From positions 1 to 40,014 of IMG/VR virus record IMGVR_UViG_3300047202_000109: a DNA stretch of 40,014 nucleotides. One strand, written 5' to 3'. This document shows, one piece after another, positions 8,794-23,971 of the stretch; position 1 is the first letter of the stretch; the number at the start of each line of letters is the position of its first letter. The notes below the pieces were generated by a model, which was given only the letters and a program-made list of their open reading frames with translations, ran no database searches and was not told where the DNA came from. The stretch comes from a virus. A program made the translations under genes and the position numbers.

Positions 8794-8822
8794 AGTGTAC
8801 CAAGAGGCGGAGCGTTTGTCAA
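8794..8822 (-). promoter_or_regulatory. Late promoter before terS
   Basis: On the minus strand TTGACA (8817-8822) is followed after exactly 17 bases by TACACT (8794-8799), with the expected start near 8787, 44 bases before the terS ATG. Its spacer differs from that of the other four promoters, which may mean separate control of the late operon. A CCCGCG-N6-CGCGGG hairpin lies two bases upstream of the -35 box. Confidence 0.7.
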
Positions 8823-16605: not shown

Positions 16606-16634
16606 AGGATAGCACACTATGCCTAATTTGTCAG
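16606..16634 (-). promoter_or_regulatory. Promoter of the int / small-gene operon
   Basis: CTGACA (16629-16634), 17 bases, TATCCT (16606-16611) on the minus strand, with TG two bases before the -10 (extended -10). The spacer begins AATTAGGCATAG, the element shared with three other promoters. The -35 lies inside the last codons of the upstream gene. Predicted start about 16599, 21 bases before the next ATG. Confidence 0.75.
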
Positions 16635-17150
16635 GCGTTTTGCCCCAGACGTCCAGCAGACGTCTGGGATGTCGTGGATGCCGTGCACGACCACCGGCGG
16701 CTCGAGCGTGACGGCGACGATCGCCGCCCGGCAAACGGCCACCGCCAGCGTCGGGCCGCTCTGCGGGATTCCGGCCAGCGAGCGGCGGAAGAGCACAGTA
16801 GGCCCCTGCGTCTGGCCCGCCGGCGCCACAACGACAGAGAAGCCGAACCTCACCATCCGCACAACGACGTCCGCCCACGGCCCTGTTGCCTCCGAGTACA
16901 TAGCCGCCGGGTAGCGTGACCGCCAGAAAACCGCGTCGACCTCACCGAAGATCTCAGCCTTGACGAGGGCATCGAGCTCCTCGCCCGCCGGCAGGCTGAC
17001 CGCCCGCGCTAGAGCCTCCCCCACCGGGCCGGCCGGCCAGGCGCTGGCATGCGCCAATAGCTCAGAGATGCTCGGCACTGTGGCGTCACGTGGCGCTCTG
17101 GTCGCCACTCTGTTCTGACGGTGACCCTTCGGCTTCCACGGCTTCCCCAC
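16623..17150 (-). CDS. Hypothetical protein (175 aa)
   Basis: 175 residues from GTG 17148-17150 (GGGGGAG just upstream). Basic N-terminus (WKPKGHRQNRVATRAPRD), a helical middle and beta-rich C-terminal half (FGFSVVVAPAG, TLAVAVCRAAIVAVTLEPPVVVHGIHDIPD). No domain recognised. It follows the replication-type gene and its 5' region contains the iteron-like repeats, so it may act in replication or regulation; that is inference. Confidence 0.65.
   Translation of the reverse strand: MGKPWKPKGHRQNRVATRAPRDATVPSISELLAHASAWPAGPVGEALARAVSLPAGEELDALVKAEIFGEVDAVFWRSRYPAAMYSEATGPWADVVVRMVRFGFSVVVAPAGQTQGPTVLFRRSLAGIPQSGPTLAVAVCRAAIVAVTLEPPVVVHGIHDIPDVCWTSGAKRLTN
16644..16668. repeat. 10-bp perfect hairpin upstream of promoter
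   Basis: CCCAGACGTC (16644-16653) pairs perfectly with GACGTCTGGG (16659-16668) around a five-base loop, inside the 3' end of the upstream gene and nine bases beyond the -35 box of the 16606-16634 promoter. It may be a regulator site or stop upstream transcripts; there is no U run. Confidence 0.6.
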
Positions 17151-17198
17151 GGTCTCCCCCTCCTGGCCGCCGCTCAGCGGCTCCTCGATTTTCGGCTG

Positions 17199-17245
17199 GA
17201 GCGCCCTTTCCCTTTTTCTTTTCTCTTTTTTTTAGAAATGCGCTC
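17199..17245. other. Homopyrimidine tract framed by inverted repeat
   Basis: GAGCGC at 17199-17204 and GCGCTC at 17240-17245 enclose a 30-base run of only C and T on the plus strand (17204-17233), the most T-rich stretch in this GC-rich genome. With the three repeats immediately to the right it resembles the easily melted part of a replication origin. Alternatives are a curved promoter UP element or a transcription pause site. Confidence 0.45.
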
Positions 17246-17261
17246 TAATGAGACAGCCCAA

Positions 17262-17327
17262 GGTGGTTAACGACGTTACCTAGGGTGATTAACGACGTTG
17301 CCTAGGGTGGTTAACGACGTTAACTAG
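17262..17327. repeat. Three tandem 22-bp iteron-like repeats
   Basis: Units at 17262-17283, 17284-17305 and 17306-17327 are abutting and differ at two or three positions each. Every unit carries the core TTAACGACGTT, which is almost palindromic (TTAACG-A-CGTTAA in the third). The third unit contains the stop codon of the winged-helix gene. Such arrays bind replication initiators or repressors. Confidence 0.75.
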
Positions 17328-17737
17328 CTGAGAGGCCACAGGCCCGGCTGGTGCGGCTCCATTGTTTCCTCGCCTGGCTTCAGTTTGATGTTAGTCGCCG
17401 ACGTGATGTTGAGGCGCCACTGGCTCACCGGCCACTTTCGGACCTGCGTTATGATACCAGCCCGGCAGAGTCTGCGGGCTGCCTTGCTGATTGCCGGCCG
17501 GGAGAGGCCCGAGCACTTTTGCATGTCCGTGAGGGAGAGGCCGCCACTGGTGGTCTGATGATAGCCTAGGGTGGCGCGGATGACCAGCAGGAGCACGCAG
17601 AGCTCCGGATGCGAGAGGTCTCCAAGCATCGTAAAGACCTCGTTGGGGGTCTGCGTGTACCTTGGCTCCTGGAATCCGTAGCCGGCGGCTGCTAGCGTTG
17701 CAGAGTTGCGGCGCAGCGGTTCGGGCGCTGGCTGCAC
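17324..17737 (-). CDS. DnaD/phage O-like replication protein (winged helix)
   Basis: 137 residues from GTG 17735-17737 (GGGAGG six bases upstream; longer frames run into the shadow of the previous gene). RYTQTPNEVFTMLGDLSHPELCVLLLVIRATLGYH and LSLTDMQKCSGLSRPAISKAARRLCRAGIITQ form the winged helix-turn-helix of phage replication organisers (lambda O-like, DnaD-like N-terminal domain), about residues 30-115. No C-terminal helicase-loader domain remains, so it is short for the family. Iterons overlap and follow its 3' end, consistent with an initiator that binds its own origin. A transcriptional regulator is the alternative. Confidence 0.8.
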   Translation of the reverse strand: MQPAPEPLRRNSATLAAAGYGFQEPRYTQTPNEVFTMLGDLSHPELCVLLLVIRATLGYHQTTSGGLSLTDMQKCSGLSRPAISKAARRLCRAGIITQVRKWPVSQWRLNITSATNIKLKPGEETMEPHQPGLWPLS

Positions 17738-17758
17738 GGCTGTCCTCCCGATGACGAT

Positions 17759-17780
17759 GCCCCGCGGTGGCTTGCGGGGC
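17759..17780. repeat. Hairpin in the leader of the winged-helix gene
   Basis: GCCCCGC and GCGGGGC pair around an eight-base loop, between the upstream stop codon and the GGGAGG ribosome site. It could modulate translation of the replication gene or terminate; there is no T run. Confidence 0.5.
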
Positions 17781-17796
17781 GCCCTGCGCAGCGCTG

Positions 17797-18252
17797 TTAC
17801 GCGCCGATGTATTTGCTCAGGTCTGACTTGATGCTGGCCATGGGGACGTCCATCACGGTGACGAAGTTCAGGCCCGGGTCCGGCGTCTCGGTGTTCTTCA
17901 CCATCGCCTCGAAGGCAAGGGAGTCCAGTTTCAGGCAGACGCCCTTGGCCACGCACCACTGCAGCGCCCGCGCTTCCTCGTAGAGGACCTGCTTCTCGAG
18001 GCGGATGTCGACGCCGGCTGCCGGGTGCTTGTCCTTCTGGCCGCTCTCGTTGTAGGCTTCGACCGCCCGCAGACGGAGCGCTTCGTCGGCTTCCTCCACC
18101 TCTTCCTTCTGTGTGTTGAGCAGCTCGATCTCCGCCCTGTGCTCCTGCTCCCAGGCCGCCCGGGCCTGTCGCAGCTTCCCTGCTGATTCTGCCGCGGCGA
18201 CGCGCTTCTGCTGCAGGGTCTTGACCAGCTCGAGCAGAGTGACTATGCTCAT
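17797..18252 (-). CDS. Conserved coiled-coil phage protein (151 aa)
   Basis: 151 residues. About 1-70 is a charged coiled coil (KTLQQKRVAAAESAGKLRQ ... NTQKEEVEEADEALRLR). The following segment QKDKHPAAGVDIRLEKQVLYEEARALQW plus PDPGLNFVTVMDVPMASIKSDLSKYI recurs in phages next to single-strand annealing or replication genes. Function unknown; recombination/replication accessory by context. ATG overlaps the upstream stop (ATGA). Confidence 0.8.
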   Translation of the reverse strand: MSIVTLLELVKTLQQKRVAAAESAGKLRQARAAWEQEHRAEIELLNTQKEEVEEADEALRLRAVEAYNESGQKDKHPAAGVDIRLEKQVLYEEARALQWCVAKGVCLKLDSLAFEAMVKNTETPDPGLNFVTVMDVPMASIKSDLSKYIGA

Positions 18253-18746
18253 CCCTCGGCCTCCTCGCCGCCCGTGGCGCCGCTCGCCGCCGTGACGGGC
18301 TTGCGTTGCTTGCAGTACACTGGCCGGCCATCGCCGCCGTCATCAGCGATCTTCACCGGGCAGAAGTAGTGGTCGCCCCGCTTGCTGAGCTTCATGGCCT
18401 TGCCGTGCGTCGGACAGCCCGGGCCGCCACCGGCCGCGCCGCCGCCGTTGTTGCCGCTGCCACCCTGGCCGCGCTGCGGCTGCGGCTTGCATCCGCCCTT
18501 GACCATCGCATCGAGGGCCGACCGCGCCAGCGTCATGACGGCCTTGACGTCTGCTCCACGCAGCGTCAACATGGCGTCGTAACCGTCTGGCGTCAGGTAC
18601 CGCACGTTCCACGACACCGGAGCCTCTGTCACGGTCATGTGCCCGTTGTCAGCAGGGGCCGGTTGTGGCGCTTGCTGCGCCGCCGCCGACGCTGGAGCCG
18701 GGTGCTGTCCCGTGGTGCTCGCTGGCTTCTGGACTGTGCCTTCCAT
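18249..18746 (-). CDS. Hypothetical protein with Gly linker and zinc site (165 aa)
   Basis: 165 residues. Pro/Ala/Gln-rich N-terminus (1-37), a core SWNVRYLTPDGYDAMLTLRGADVKAVMTLARSALDAM, a Gly/Asn-rich linker, then C-x(2)-H (CPTH) and a C-x(13)-C arrangement (FCPVKI ... YCKQR) that could bind zinc. Similar proteins accompany phage recombination/replication genes. Function is not known. ATG 18744-18746 follows AAGGAGG. Confidence 0.8.
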   Translation of the reverse strand: MEGTVQKPASTTGQHPAPASAAAQQAPQPAPADNGHMTVTEAPVSWNVRYLTPDGYDAMLTLRGADVKAVMTLARSALDAMVKGGCKPQPQRGQGGSGNNGGGAAGGGPGCPTHGKAMKLSKRGDHYFCPVKIADDGGDGRPVYCKQRKPVTAASGATGGEEAEG

Positions 18747-18761
18747 CAGACGACCTCCTTG

Positions 18762-19076
18762 TTAATTGGCCCTGTCTTTCGGCGGGGCCGGCCTATTGAT
18801 GAGAACGGCGGGTGGCTTCACCCAGGCCGCATGCGGTTGCGACTGGCTTGTGAGCGCCGGCGCCGCGGCCTCGCCCACCGCTGCCTTCATGAAGCGTGTG
18901 CGCCGCCCGTCGGCGATCGGTGCGTTCTTGATGTAGCCCTGCCGCTCCAGCACCGCTTTGATGAACCGCCCGACGGTGATGCCCTTGGCCGCGTGCCTCA
19001 AGCTGACGAGGTCCTCGGGCGTGAAGCGCAGAAAGACCTGCCTGTATCGGCTGACGCCGTGGCCTATCCGAGCCAT
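18762..19076 (-). CDS. Putative ribbon-helix-helix-like DNA-binding protein (104 aa)
   Basis: 104 residues from ATG 19074-19076 (AGGAGG). RYRQVFLRFTPEDLVSLRHAAKGITVGRFIKAVLERQGY follows the strand-helix-helix plan of RHH/Arc-MetJ regulators: a short basic strand, then two helices joined by a Gly turn. The C-terminal half is Ala/Pro-rich and flexible. First gene after the 19117-19145 promoter, so it is the best candidate in the window for a regulator of the shared operator. It could equally be a DNA-bridging or replication accessory protein. Confidence 0.6.
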   Translation of the reverse strand: MARIGHGVSRYRQVFLRFTPEDLVSLRHAAKGITVGRFIKAVLERQGYIKNAPIADGRRTRFMKAAVGEAAAPALTSQSQPHAAWVKPPAVLINRPAPPKDRAN

Positions 19077-19116
19077 ATTGCCTCCTTCATGCCTCTTGTC
19101 CTCCCTCAGCCTGCTG

Positions 19117-19145
19117 AGCATAGCACATCTTGCCTAATCTGTCAA
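19117..19145 (-). promoter_or_regulatory. Promoter of the replication operon
   Basis: TTGACA (19140-19145), 17 bases, TATGCT (19117-19122) on the minus strand, with TG before the -10. The spacer starts GATTAGGC. Predicted start about 19110, 34 bases before the RHH-like ATG. A CTACGG (19153-19158)/CCGTAG (19163-19168) hairpin lies seven bases upstream of the -35. Confidence 0.8.
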
Positions 19146-19152
19146 GCTCTGT

Positions 19153-19260
19153 CTACGGGTGGCCGTAGGCGCTGGCGATCTGGTACCACAGCCAGATCGT
19201 GGCGATGGCCAGCAGGATTGTGGCGGCGATCTCTGTGCGGCTGTGGTGGCGGCGTGTCAT
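19153..19260 (-). CDS. Small membrane protein (35 aa)
   Basis: ATG 19258-19260 to TAG 19153-19155 encodes 35 residues with a basic N-terminus (MTRRHHSRTE) and one membrane segment (about 11-29, IAATILLAIATIWLWYQIA). The start overlaps the previous stop as ATGA, which supports it as a real coupled gene. Function unknown. Confidence 0.7.
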   Translation of the reverse strand: MTRRHHSRTEIAATILLAIATIWLWYQIASAYGHP

Positions 19261-19463
19261 GGTGTTGCCTCGTCCTGGCGGGCTGGTTGTTGGGCCAGGT
19301 CTTGGCCGTTGCTGGCGGCGACGACTCTGGTTGCCTGGCGCACGATTGCCGCGGTGAGTTTCCTCTGCAGAGCGCAGAAGTTGGCGAGTTCCGCGATTTC
19401 GTGGGCGAGCGTGGTGTCTGGCTGGCTGGCGGGTTGGGCTGTGGCCGGGTCCGTCGTGTTCAC
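19257..19463 (-). CDS. Hypothetical helical protein (68 aa)
   Basis: 68 residues from GTG 19461-19463 (GTGA overlap with the upstream gene; GGAGG seven bases before). Helical (LAHEIAELANFCALQRKLTAAIVRQ), with a low-complexity Ser/Gln/Pro N-terminus. Not recognised. Confidence 0.7.
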   Translation of the reverse strand: MNTTDPATAQPASQPDTTLAHEIAELANFCALQRKLTAAIVRQATRVVAASNGQDLAQQPARQDEATP

Positions 19464-19990
19464 GTGGCGGCCTCCATGTATGCGGCTGCGGCTTGGAGGG
19501 CTTGGGCCTCGGCGGCCTCGAAGTCGGCCAGTGCGGTCTGCTCGGCCCTCGCGCGTGCCTCGATCTCTGGGTCGTTGCCGTGGCCGTTGTCGGCTGGCTT
19601 GGCGTGCTTGGCTGCGCGGGCGGTGTTGACGGGGTAGCGTTCGGCGTGGCGTGCCTTGGCGGCGTCTTCGAATCCTGGCAGATACTTGGAGGCCTCTTGG
19701 AGTTGGCGTTCTTCGTCCCAGTCTACGCGTTTGCCGTCTCTGTACCAGGTGACGCCGTTGTAGGTGACGCCCTGGTCGGCGCTAATGAGCTCGAGCTGCC
19801 GGGCCTCGTGGAGGCACGGCTTCGTGTAGATCATCGGTGGCTCGGCCAGGATGGTGACGGTCGTGCCGTCGATGCTCAGCATGAGGGCCGCGAACTTGGC
19901 TAGTATCTGCTTGTTGTAGCTGCCGAATGTGGCGTCGCTTATAGCTGCGACGGCGCATCCGCATGGTCTGATTGCTGCCCAGGTCGACAT
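19460..19990 (-). CDS. Hypothetical protein (176 aa)
   Basis: 176 residues from ATG 19988-19990 (AGGAGGGG). N-terminal half beta/alpha mixed (SYNKQILAKFAALMLSIDGTTVTILAEPPMIYTK), a conserved-looking TYNGVTWYRDGKRVDWDEE, then an Ala/Glu-rich helical C-terminus (about 145-176). No family recognised. Several GTG-start codons and Ala-rich tail are typical of this region. Confidence 0.7.
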   Translation of the reverse strand: MSTWAAIRPCGCAVAAISDATFGSYNKQILAKFAALMLSIDGTTVTILAEPPMIYTKPCLHEARQLELISADQGVTYNGVTWYRDGKRVDWDEERQLQEASKYLPGFEDAAKARHAERYPVNTARAAKHAKPADNGHGNDPEIEARARAEQTALADFEAAEAQALQAAAAYMEAAT

Positions 19991-20057
19991 GTTCTCCCCT
20001 CCTATGGGGTGGTGCTGTGCGGGCCGGATCGGACCAGACCCGCTGGCTTGCGTTCAC

Positions 20058-20408
20058 CTACAGCGCGGCGTGCTCCCGGCTCAGCAACACCTGGATACCC
20101 GCCTCGACGTAGTCGTCTGACTGTACCGTCTCCCCAGATGCCAACTCGTCTATGCTCATGGTCAGGTCGTCGATCTCTGACCTCGTCTGAGCCATCTCTT
20201 CACGCTCATCCTCGAGCTTGCCCCGCTTGGTCTCCAGCTCCTTTCTCAGCGCCTTGAGCTGCCTCCGGGCTGGCTCAGCCGCCTTGACCGCCCGCTCCCC
20301 CTCGTACAGCGCATCGCGCCAGTGCTGCCAGCAAAGCGGCTGCGCCGCCGGGCCGAAGACCGCCACGCCGTCGATCTCTATCTTGCAGACCGTGCACCGA
20401 ATGGTCAT
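20058..20408 (-). CDS. Zinc-finger plus coiled-coil protein (116 aa)
   Basis: 116 residues: CTVC (5-8) and C26-x-x-H29 (CWQHW) form a probable zinc site, followed by a long charged coiled coil (about 35-85, LKALRKELETKRGKLEDEREEM) and an acidic tail. ATG 20406-20408 follows AAGGCGGGGT. A structural or nucleic-acid tethering role is possible. Confidence 0.7.
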   Translation of the reverse strand: MTIRCTVCKIEIDGVAVFGPAAQPLCWQHWRDALYEGERAVKAAEPARRQLKALRKELETKRGKLEDEREEMAQTRSEIDDLTMSIDELASGETVQSDDYVEAGIQVLLSREHAAL

Positions 20409-20423
20409 CTCACCCCGCCTTCC

Positions 20424-20912
20424 CTATCCACAATGGACGATGTAGTACATACCACACGCCGCACATCGGGCGCTGGTTTCATAGGGCCCCGTCCCCATGA
20501 CCTCGAAGTGGATGCCCGCGCAGTTCCGACACACCAAACGATCAAACACGGCGCCAGGAGGGAAGACGTGGTCGAGGTTCGTGTCTGACCACGTTATGTC
20601 GCGGCGCTCAACCGCGTCGGCGGATGGATTCAGCACTCCCATTTGCTTGTCCATTGTCCCTGCCCCCAGCGGTTCCGTTACCAAGATTGTCTTGCCGTCT
20701 TCGTGGTACACGGCGGACGCTCCGCCTGCCTCTTGCTTCGCCGTCCTCTGGGAGGCATACATCTTGCTGAGCGTCTCGCTCAAGGCGCCGTCGACTGCGT
20801 CCTGAATGTATGCCTTGACCGTCTCACGGTCCGGCCTCCCCTCGTGCCCGCCCCAGAATGCCACCGCCTGCAGGTCCGATTCTGCGAGCTCGAACGACAG
20901 GTGCACCCTCAT
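20424..20912 (-). CDS. Hypothetical protein with C-terminal zinc ribbon (162 aa)
   Basis: 162 residues from ATG 20910-20912 (AGGAGG). N-terminus strand-rich (MRVHLSFELAESDLQAVAFWGG), helix EGRPDRETVKAYIQDAVDGAL, then a C-terminal ribbon with CRNC and CAACG. Not recognised as a known enzyme. The family could be a host-directed early protein. Confidence 0.7.
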   Translation of the reverse strand: MRVHLSFELAESDLQAVAFWGGHEGRPDRETVKAYIQDAVDGALSETLSKMYASQRTAKQEAGGASAVYHEDGKTILVTEPLGAGTMDKQMGVLNPSADAVERRDITWSDTNLDHVFPPGAVFDRLVCRNCAGIHFEVMGTGPYETSARCAACGMYYIVHCG

Positions 20913-20923
20913 ACGCCGGCCTC

Positions 20924-21592
20924 CTAGTCGAGATCGGATAGCCACCTGGCGGAATCCCCCAATGCTATGGCGCGCTCGAGCGCCGCCAGCTTCGCCTCCA
21001 CCGGCCGGCCGCCGTGCCACGCCACCACGACCGGGTTGGCTATATTGTCAATGCCAACCACGCTGTTCCAGCGGTACTCGATGCGCTCAACCAAGACCGA
21101 CCAGTGTGGGACGGATAGGAGGGCGTTAAGGACACGTTGCTCACTCGTCGGCGCGAGCCACCAGGGGGCGGCATCGTCAGTCAGGTTGGCGCCGCGGGGC
21201 GCCAGTGCCAGCATCTCGTCGAAGAGGTCCAGGACGGCGGAATAGCGCTTAACGTACATCACGCCGGCGTTGAAGTGCCAGGGTTCGCCGCCGGGAGCCT
21301 GCCCCCAGCGCATGCCGATCTGCGTGACCGACAGCGCGTCGCGCAGATCGGCGGCAGGGTCCACGATGAGAGCGTCCGCGTCCATGTAGACGACGAACGC
21401 GTAGTCGGCCAGGAGTCTGCTGATGTGGAAATAGCGCGACCACATCGGCGTCGTCTGGTAGTCGGACTTCGTGATGGCCACGTAGTCGAAGCCGTGCTGC
21501 CGGCAGTACGCCGAGTGCCGTTCGCGGCTGGCATCCAGGAGAGCCGCCCACTTCTCGCCGACGCCGATCTGCAACAATACCGCCTTGTTCAC
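20924..21592 (-). CDS. GT-A glycosyltransferase (GT34/GT8-like)
   Basis: 222 residues from GTG 21590-21592 (GTGA overlap with its neighbour; GGAGG seven bases upstream). A nucleotide-sugar domain opens with AVLLQIGVGEKWAALLDASRERHSAYCRQHGFDYVAI; the metal-binding DxD motif is DAD at 71-73 in VVYMDADALIVDP; HFNAGVMYV (107-115) and a late HGGR histidine motif follow. This pattern fits nucleotide-sugar transferases of the GT34/GT8 type. Acceptor unknown: phage surface, DNA or host glycan. It sits in the early operon, unlike the other two glycosyltransferases. Confidence 0.85.
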   Translation of the reverse strand: MNKAVLLQIGVGEKWAALLDASRERHSAYCRQHGFDYVAITKSDYQTTPMWSRYFHISRLLADYAFVVYMDADALIVDPAADLRDALSVTQIGMRWGQAPGGEPWHFNAGVMYVKRYSAVLDLFDEMLALAPRGANLTDDAAPWWLAPTSEQRVLNALLSVPHWSVLVERIEYRWNSVVGIDNIANPVVVAWHGGRPVEAKLAALERAIALGDSARWLSDLD

Positions 21593-21891
21593 GACGTCAC
21601 CTCCACGGGAACCGCGGCCACCGCCCGATACGTCCAGACCGACGCCGTGCGCAGCGAGGCCGGCAGGCGCTGCTCGAGCGACACCACGCCCTCGTGCCAA
21701 TTGTTCGCGCACTGCTGGCACAGATTCTTCTCCACCGTCATGCCGTCTGAATAGCAGACCCGCACGTGCAGGATCGCGGGCCGCTCGCACCGGACGAGAT
21801 GCCCCGGCCTGCCGCGCCTGTACCGCGCCCCGTTGTGCGGAGTGATGACCGCGTAGTCCGGCAGATACTCCAAGGTCTCGCATTGCGCCAT
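21589..21891 (-). CDS. Zinc-site hypothetical protein (100 aa)
   Basis: 100 residues, with CERPAILHVRVC and NLCQQCANNW pairs forming a likely zinc site. First gene of the operon read from the promoter at 21936-21964; ATG 21889-21891 follows AGGAGGGG. Not recognised. Confidence 0.7.
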   Translation of the reverse strand: MAQCETLEYLPDYAVITPHNGARYRRGRPGHLVRCERPAILHVRVCYSDGMTVEKNLCQQCANNWHEGVVSLEQRLPASLRTASVWTYRAVAAVPVEVTS

Positions 21892-21935
21892 CGCCGCCCC
21901 TCCTCAGTTCGTTTGCTGCTTGCCCCAACGGAAGC

Positions 21936-21964
21936 AGCATAGCATACTATGCCTAATTTGTCAA
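21936..21964 (-). promoter_or_regulatory. Early-operon promoter
   Basis: TTGACA (21959-21964), 17 bases, TATGCT (21936-21941), extended by TG. The spacer AATTAGGCATAGTATGC shares ATTAGGC and TGC with three others. Predicted start about 21929, 38 bases before the 21891 ATG. It begins immediately downstream of the structured-RNA terminator. Confidence 0.85.
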
Positions 21965-21967
21965 GGG

Positions 21968-22214
21968 GGAAAAGAAAGTCCCGCCTCGATTGGGCGGGAA
22001 AAGCAGCGGGAGCGACACCGCCTTGCTTGCCAGTGTCGCTCCCTTATTTAATTATCGGTGGGGAGCCCCGATCGCTCGGGGCTCCCGCTCTGAGGAAGGT
22101 GCCCCGATGGAACCGGGGCGATGGCGCTCCGCCGTATGGCCGGAGCGTTCGGCGAGGCGTCGCCGGTGGATCCGCCGGACTCCTCGCTCATCAATCGTGG
22201 GGCGACGATTGAAC
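21968..22214 (-). ncRNA. Structured non-coding RNA, about 245 nt
   Basis: No gene fits this stretch. From the predicted start at 22214 the minus-strand transcript contains, in order: an 8-bp stem (22205-22212 with 22191-22198); GCGAGG/CCTCGC (22182-22187 with 22152-22157) enclosing a smaller stem; a 7-bp stem (22141-22147 with 22125-22131); GCCCCG/CGGGGC (22114-22119 with 22101-22106); an 11-bp perfect stem with a GCGA tetraloop (22076-22086 with 22061-22071); a second 11-bp stem (22033-22043 with 22008-22018); and a terminator. Both 11-bp stems start GGGAGC, so arm exchange is possible. No known RNA family is recognised. A 47-codon frame exists but lacks a ribosome site. Confidence 0.7.
21970..21998 (-). 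terminator. Intrinsic terminator of the structured RNA
   Basis: CCCGCC (minus strand 21998-21993) pairs with GGCGGG (21985-21980) around a seven-base loop, followed by ACTTTCTTTT. It is the best rho-independent terminator in the window, and ends directly upstream of the 21936-21964 promoter. Confidence 0.75.
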
Positions 22215-22220
22215 ACCTGA

Positions 22221-22249
22221 ATACTAGCACAGGCCGCCTAATCTGTCAA
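22221..22249 (-). promoter_or_regulatory. Promoter of the structured RNA
   Basis: TTGACA (22244-22249), 17 bases, TAGTAT (22221-22226) on the minus strand, with TG before the -10 and the spacer GATTAGGC... shared with other phage promoters. Its start (about 22214) lies two bases before the first stem of the RNA. Confidence 0.8.
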
Positions 22250-22284: not shown

Positions 22285-22626
22285 CTACCGCCCCAGGCCG
22301 CCCACGCGCTGTAGCCCAGCCTTGCCCGCCACGTACATCAGCGTCGCCCACGCCGCTATCGCCACCGCCTGCAACGCCACCCAGGCATAGTCCGCCGGCG
22401 GCGGCGCCGTGCTCAGCACCTGCGCGATGACCGCCAGCACGCCGGCGATGATAGGCGCGAACAGGATGGCATAGCGGTCGACGATGCCCTGCCCGGGCGC
22501 CGTCTGCTTCTTGAGCCACGCCCGGACGACCTGCTCAGCCACCTTTGCCACCTGCACCAGAACGAGCACCGCACCGCCGGACGCCAGCCAGCGGACGAAC
22601 TGGTCCCACGTGATGAACTCTGGCAT
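22285..22626 (-). CDS. Putative holin
   Basis: 113 residues with three membrane segments (about 14-30, 52-71 and 80-100) separated by a charged loop (RAWLKKQTAPGQGIVDR). ATG 22624-22626 follows AGGAGG. Size, topology and position at the end of the tail module fit a class I holin, which forms membrane lesions to trigger lysis. No endolysin gene is adjacent, so the assignment is by topology and context. A superinfection-immunity membrane protein is an alternative. Confidence 0.65.
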   Translation of the reverse strand: MPEFITWDQFVRWLASGGAVLVLVQVAKVAEQVVRAWLKKQTAPGQGIVDRYAILFAPIIAGVLAVIAQVLSTAPPPADYAWVALQAVAIAAWATLMYVAGKAGLQRVGGLGR

Positions 22627-22909: not shown

Positions 22910-23971
22910 CTAGGGCTTCCTGAACGGGGCCAGGATGACATAGCCACGCCCCGGGCTGACCGTCAGGTCGTGCTGCATGTTCCAGGCCGGAACGAGGCCC
23001 TCGAGCGTGATGGCCAGCGTGTAGGACAGCACACTGACCTCATAGCCGCCGGCTGGCAGCGTCAGCGTCACGACGCCCGCCCGGCCCGTCCACACCGATT
23101 CGCCCCACGGCAGCAAGCCCCGTGACATAAAGAGCACGCTGGCGTCAACCGGCGCCGCTCCCGCCTCATAGACGCCGTCATCCTCGACGTCATACCACGC
23201 CCGCACCACGATCTCCCCCTGCAGCGGCGTCGGCGTTGCTGGACAGATGACGGCCGTCGGCTGCACCGTGGGCGTCGGACTATAGGCAACTACAGGCGTC
23301 GGCGTCCCCGTCGGCGTGGGTGTTGCCTCCGCCGTCCTGGTCGGCACGATGGTCGGCGTCGGCGTGTTGGTCGGCCAGGAGTGTGGCGTGACGCCGATCG
23401 CCGACAGCTTCGGGTTGCCGGACCGGCTGTGCAGCTCGACGGTCAGAGCGCCGTCAATCACCGTCGCGCCCCGCCAGACGATGTCGTACGCCACGTAGCG
23501 CCCCGCCTGCTGCATCAGGTCCAGCGTCTCCAGGGTTCGCCCCTCGATGATGACGTCGAAGACCCTGTCCCCCACGTAGGTCTGCGGGTAGATCTCGGCG
23601 AAGCGCAGCCAGACCTCGTAGTCGCCGTTCGGCAGCGTGAAGGTGTAGCGCCCATCACCGATCCAGTAGCGCTCCGTCTGATAGAGCTGGGTGTCCGTTG
23701 TCCTGCGGATAGGCGTCGCGTTGGTATAGGTCAGGCCGCCCGTGAAGCCCCATCCGCCTGCCGTGAACGCACGGTCCGCCTGCCAGACGCGGCCCTGGGC
23801 ATCGGTGTATGCCCTGGCGCTGCCGGCGTTGACGTACCAGTCACCGCCGGCCGCAACCGTCACCGGCGCTGCCCGATGCCCGATGGGCCGCAGGCGCCAA
23901 CCGGCCAGGAAAGCCACAACGAATATCGTGACGAGCAGGCCGACAAGGCAGCCCCTAGTTAGCTTTACCAT
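22910..23971 (-). CDS. Membrane-anchored malectin-domain protein
   Basis: 353 residues. An N-terminal basic stretch and hydrophobic segment (about 8-25) act as signal anchor. A malectin domain (about 40-198) shows YVNAGSARAYTDAQGRVWQADRAF, YQTERYWIGDGRYTFTLPNGDYEVWLRFAEIYPQTYVGDRVFDVIIEG and SGNPKLSAIGV, matching the family order. A Thr/Pro linker (about 200-250, TPTPT repeats) leads to a beta-sandwich Cna-B-like C-terminus (about 253-350) with EGEIVVRAWYDVEDDGVYEAG. Malectin binds diglucosides. The product would be a surface lectin displayed by the infected cell. Possible roles: host receptor masking, wall attachment for lysis, or biofilm/adhesion. It overlaps the upstream gene by 17 bases. 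Confidence 0.82.
   Translation of the reverse strand: MVKLTRGCLVGLLVTIFVVAFLAGWRLRPIGHRAAPVTVAAGGDWYVNAGSARAYTDAQGRVWQADRAFTAGGWGFTGGLTYTNATPIRRTTDTQLYQTERYWIGDGRYTFTLPNGDYEVWLRFAEIYPQTYVGDRVFDVIIEGRTLETLDLMQQAGRYVAYDIVWRGATVIDGALTVELHSRSGNPKLSAIGVTPHSWPTNTPTPTIVPTRTAEATPTPTGTPTPVVAYSPTPTVQPTAVICPATPTPLQGEIVVRAWYDVEDDGVYEAGAAPVDASVLFMSRGLLPWGESVWTGRAGVVTLTLPAGGYEVSVLSYTLAITLEGLVPAWNMQHDLTVSPGRGYVILAPFRKP

Follow-up and report, generated by a model that had tools for sequence, protein, structure and literature searches.

Is the DNA that separates the late from the early genes of this phage transcribed into a discrete RNA, and what could such an RNA do? The window analysed is a whole IMG/VR record (IMGVR_UViG_3300047202_000109, 40,014 bases), in which portal, large terminase, scaffold, tape measure, tail and integrase genes were recognised, and in which the minus strand carries 58 of the 58 genes called. 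The structural genes of a distant relative (G013) stand in one continuous order that bridges both ends of the window, and we therefore take the record for a circularly permuted tailed phage, in which the series of head genes at the left of the window is resumed at the right end. Along the minus strand, the tail genes are followed by a holin-like gene (ending at 22285), by the RNA unit, and by an early region that starts at 21891 and runs downwards, with an O-like replication protein and the integrase, as far as the promoter at 8822 that precedes the terminase genes. The unit thus lies between late and early operons, as an earlier note on this DNA had placed it, the terms 'early' and 'late' being assigned from gene content. 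No repressor was recognised among the phage proteins scanned. Near the end of the tail genes, a malectin-domain protein with PT-rich repeats is encoded (22910-23971), possibly a sugar-binding one; its repeats are reminiscent of Chloroflexota, which we take as a guess about the host.

The promoter of the unit, P1, combines a perfect -35 (TTGACA, 22249-22244), a 17-base spacer and an extended -10 (TAGTAT, 22226-22221) with an upstream TG. Counting both strands, it is one of the top four sigma-70-type matches in the window, which agrees with the strong promoter claimed previously, and transcription from it is predicted to start at about 22214. Three other promoters, P2, P3 and P4, share with P1 the pattern YTGACARATTAGGC-N4-TRTGCTA (at 22249, 21964, 19145 and 16634), and ATTAGGC occurs four times in the 40-kb window, each time inside one of these four promoters. 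The motif that bears it may serve as an operator, or may help the host polymerase to recognise these promoters. Because P1 belongs to this set, the RNA is likely made together with the early operons, or under the same regulator. The repeated motif also eases the mapping of early operons in this phage. It was observed that, over 16606-22249, the four promoters have TTGACARATTAGGC-N4-TRTGCTA in common, one of them with CTGACA. A fifth strong promoter (8794-8822), before the terminase genes and devoid of ATTAGGC, is likely a late promoter.

Downstream of P1, the transcript is predicted to fold into seven hairpins, HP1 to HP7 (Table 1). The earlier note had correctly described a structured RNA, with a count of six stem regions that has to be raised to seven, and both of its perfect 11-bp stems, one with a GCGA loop, were found (HP5 and HP6). 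Perfect stems of at least 11 bp number six in the window, compared with none or one in each of ten shuffles. Of 399 segments of 200 bases on the minus strand, none is more strongly structured than 21901-22100 (z -8.1; genome mean -0.4, sd 1.2), and the whole RNA has a folding z of -6.2 to -6.5, none of the shuffles folding as well. This structural excess peaks in HP5-7 (z -7.1), HP1-4 alone giving z -3.0 to -3.7. HP7 and its U-rich tail form an intrinsic terminator in the direction of P1, also as proposed. In conclusion, the sequence features give good support to a discrete, structured RNA that is placed between late and early genes and has a promoter and a terminator of its own, and we consider it probable that this RNA is made.

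Table 1. Predicted features of the RNA unit, of the related promoters and of the proposed target
Feature	Position	Strand	Sequence or basis
Non-coding RNA, about 245 nt, seven hairpins	21970..22214	-	ends predicted
P1, promoter of the RNA	22221..22249	-	TTGACA-N17-TAGTAT, TG before -10
HP1, 8-bp hairpin two bases from the predicted 5' end	22191..22212	-	fold
HP2, interrupted hairpin	22152..22187	-	fold
HP3	22125..22147	-	fold
HP4	22101..22119	-	fold
CU-rich linker, largely unpaired, possible anti-Shine-Dalgarno seed	22090..22099	-	CCUUCCUCAG; fold and pairing
HP5, perfect 11-bp stem, GCGA tetraloop	22061..22086	-	arms 22061-22071/22076-22086
HP6, 11 perfect bp (13 pairs in the fold)	22008..22043	-	arms 22008-22018/22033-22043
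HP7, hairpin itself	21979-21999	-	fold
HP7 with U-rich tail, intrinsic terminator	21970..21999	-	tail CTTTCTTTT
P2, promoter of the first early operon, class of P1	21936..21964	-	sequence match
Shine-Dalgarno region, first P2 gene; strongest predicted pairing with the linker	21898..21907	-	CTGAGGAGGG; pairing
First gene of the P2 operon	21589..21891	-	100 aa, CxxC motifs, no family
P3, third promoter of the set	19117..19145	-	sequence match
P4, fourth promoter of the set (CTGACA)	16606..16634	-	sequence match

The minus strand of the unit contains open frames of 47 to 60 codons, so that a small protein encoded in the stretch had to be considered. Scored against the codon usage of the phage, all six frames, and the frames of 47, 54 and 60 codons, fell below background. 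The small frames scored -0.19 to -0.52 per codon, most called genes being positive, and no Shine-Dalgarno site was found ahead of their starts. A coding function is thus very improbable, and the description of the transcript as gene-free holds, the 47-codon frame included. The covariance search suggested in the earlier note was carried out with the Rfam models: no family matched the RNA, which is an orphan there, and nothing came near a gathering cut-off even at E up to 10. ARAGORN detected no tRNA or tmRNA match.

The stems of HP5 and HP6 both carry GGGAGC, and it had been proposed that their arms could swap, the RNA acting as a switch or sponge. Forcing the HP5/HP6 exchange gave -123.2 kcal/mol compared with -131.2 kcal/mol for the unforced fold, a cost of about 8 kcal/mol; forcing an HP4/HP5 exchange gave -124.4 kcal/mol, a cost of about 7 kcal/mol. 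The mean pair probabilities of the two 11-bp stems were 0.99 and 1.00. In the folding model neither exchanged fold is populated at equilibrium; the arm-swap switch is therefore disfavoured, and we regard this reading as highly unlikely in spite of the common GGGAGC.

What, then, could the unit do? The sequence speaks neither for nor against the counter-defence or packaged RNA listed among the possible roles in the earlier note. Our tentative preference, held well short of conviction, is for a small-RNA gene at the late/early boundary that also closes the late operon and acts by pairing on the early operon. P1 would be used early, alongside P2, P3 and P4. The RNA would be stable, as it begins and ends in hairpins. 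The same terminators would stop late read-through ahead of P2, which starts five bases past the HP7 tail. HP6 is followed by GCTGCTTTT, a U run shorter than that of HP7, and is possibly a first terminator; since U runs follow both hairpins, two terminators may stand in tandem. Read on the plus strand, HP6 precedes TTATTTAATTAT (22008-22056) and could terminate plus-strand transcripts too; no plus-strand genes were called. Several observations argue for a small-RNA gene. The structure of the unit is the strongest in the genome, and HP1-4, which no terminator needs, still show the excess given above. P1 is in the best promoter class of the phage, with a spacer motif common to the promoters of three other operons. 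The frames give no coding signal, and a U-tailed terminator immediately precedes P2.

The main rival reading, which we consider possible, explains the same arrangement as a leader and insulator without any function for the RNA: the hairpins would end the late operon in tandem, and P1 would duplicate the early promoter upstream of it. The RNA would then be a by-product, or an attenuated leader like lambda 6S at pR', read through only once termination is overcome. From the holin-like gene to P1 no U-tailed terminator was found, so that transcription of the late genes must run on into HP1-7; most of the structural excess is in HP5-7, adjoining P2. Furthermore, P1 and P2 are 77% alike over a 26-base stretch, and P1 could be a leftover copy of P2, which argues against a small-RNA gene. 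Hairpins are also present upstream of other promoters of the set: in three of the four, the preceding 50 bases contain a perfect hairpin of 8 bp or more (chance 3% each). However, P1 and HP1-4 would be superfluous for an insulator, and a P2 placed five bases past the terminator would be superfluous for an attenuated leader. Lambda 6S is located ahead of the late genes, whereas the RNA described here is located ahead of the early genes.

The proposal that the small RNA acts by pairing comes from ACCUUCCUCAG, between HP4 and HP5, the only long unpaired pyrimidine-rich stretch of the RNA. Pairing energies were calculated including the cost of opening both partners (accessibility). Among 53 phage start regions, the best partner of this linker is CUGAGGAGGG (-10.9 kcal/mol), the Shine-Dalgarno region that serves the first P2 gene, and twelfth place goes to the first P3 gene, paired by the same linker. 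The chance that the best of 53 is the neighbour gene is about 2%, a post hoc value, as partners were sought after the linker had been noticed. Of about 80 control windows, one gave a stronger pairing (-12.5 kcal/mol), 33 of 300 random phage segments do as well as the linker, which is unexceptional among them, and CU-rich segments pair with any AGGAGG site. By covering the Shine-Dalgarno site of the first P2 gene and, with weaker pairing, the corresponding site of the first P3 gene, the linker (22099-22090) might dampen early protein synthesis. We consider such a base-pairing mechanism doubtful; the linker pairing is a weak hypothesis that deserves one reporter experiment. A more elaborate version appears unlikely: the RNA would be a new kind of timer, in a phage of an unstudied host lineage, that is transcribed first, from the promoter class of the early operons, and throttles these operons by covering their Shine-Dalgarno sites.

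Relatives of the RNA were searched for in several collections. There was no blastn match in 50,697 phage records, none in plasmids, and none in 30 IMG/VR records that have terminase, portal or tail relatives or a promoter-pattern match. Hairpin and promoter patterns run over IMG/VR gave 0, 9 and 1 matches, which were chance-like on inspection and were rejected; none of the nine hairpin-pattern matches had a related structure. No relatives of the holin-like protein were found, and the terminase search of genome contigs returned one distant Cytobacillus match. Portal relatives include one long syntenic record, G013, most others being short fragments that need not reach the late/early junction; the G013 junction is not comparable, because most of its non-structural genes are on the other strand. 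The absence of RNA relatives is weak evidence, since the collections may omit records very near the window. A glycosyltransferase-like gene of the early operon (20924-21592) has its G013 relative (L067:12132-12701) among structural genes, an apparent gene relocation.

The earlier note had stated that it knew no phage RNA family with such a layout. As a claim that none is known, this is too strong, given the early RNA of cluster A mycobacteriophages (PMC5712189) and the small RNAs of lambda and other phages (PMC12197685). In cluster A phages, the most abundant RNA is made from the first early promoter, is non-coding and lies ahead of the early genes; its level drops sharply before these genes, host toxicity has been found for its region, and the RNA has no clearly assigned role (PMC5712189). 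This Pleft RNA, known from L5, D29 and StarStuff, is the nearest published parallel in position, being likewise non-coding, transcribed from the first early promoter and just ahead of early genes (PMC5712189). By analogy, the RNA described here could be an abundant early RNA that acts on the host, titrating a host protein or RNA, or defeating a defence. We find this rather unlikely, Pleft RNA being about 500 nt long and without evident terminator. Pleft RNA is moreover processed, and has been measured and found toxic (PMC5712189). The blastn search of the 50,697 phage records detected no sequence similarity to the mycobacteriophage Pleft locus.

A second parallel is HK022 putL and putR, in which hairpins directly follow an early promoter and precede terminators (PMC9378689). 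HP1 and HP2 might by analogy bind the polymerase while they emerge from it, so that it reads past the terminators and enters the early operon, as the two hairpins of putL would suggest. However, HK022 put is about 70 nt, has two stems and suppresses termination in cis (PMC9378689), whereas the present RNA has seven hairpins in 245 nt and ends in a terminator; moreover, put works in an E. coli phage, and read-through is unnecessary given P2. A put-like role is accordingly quite improbable.

A review counts lambda 6S, OOP, PreS, VpdS and others as phage small RNAs; like the RNA described here, these are short phage RNA genes, several of which run from promoter to terminator and some of which base-pair (PMC12197685). 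Judged by its sequence, the unit has the hallmarks of a phage small RNA, namely its own promoter and terminator, a length between 50 and 550 nt and no conserved protein frame. In contrast with this likeness in layout, it has no sequence match to lambda 6S or to the other phage small RNAs listed. The RNA is thus a new orphan among the phage small RNAs, a kind already known, and none of the collections searched contained a relative. Studies of phage small RNAs are scarce and mostly concern the phages of some model bacteria. In a phage that has no close sequenced relative, a clear promoter-RNA-terminator unit offers a candidate open to testing, its ends, seed and target being predicted.

The promoters of the set are partly reminiscent of PeSL cassettes of T4-type phages (Arbiol 2010), in which promoters stand beside stem-loops and are repeated in one genome, as far as these cassettes are outlined in two further articles (PMC3950731, PMC4503421). 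Compared with that outline, only four copies are present here, and their hairpin sequences differ. The perfect hairpins just upstream of P4 (10 bp, 16644-16668) and of P3 (8 bp, 19176-19199) are devoid of U tails and lie inside the 3' ends of the preceding genes.
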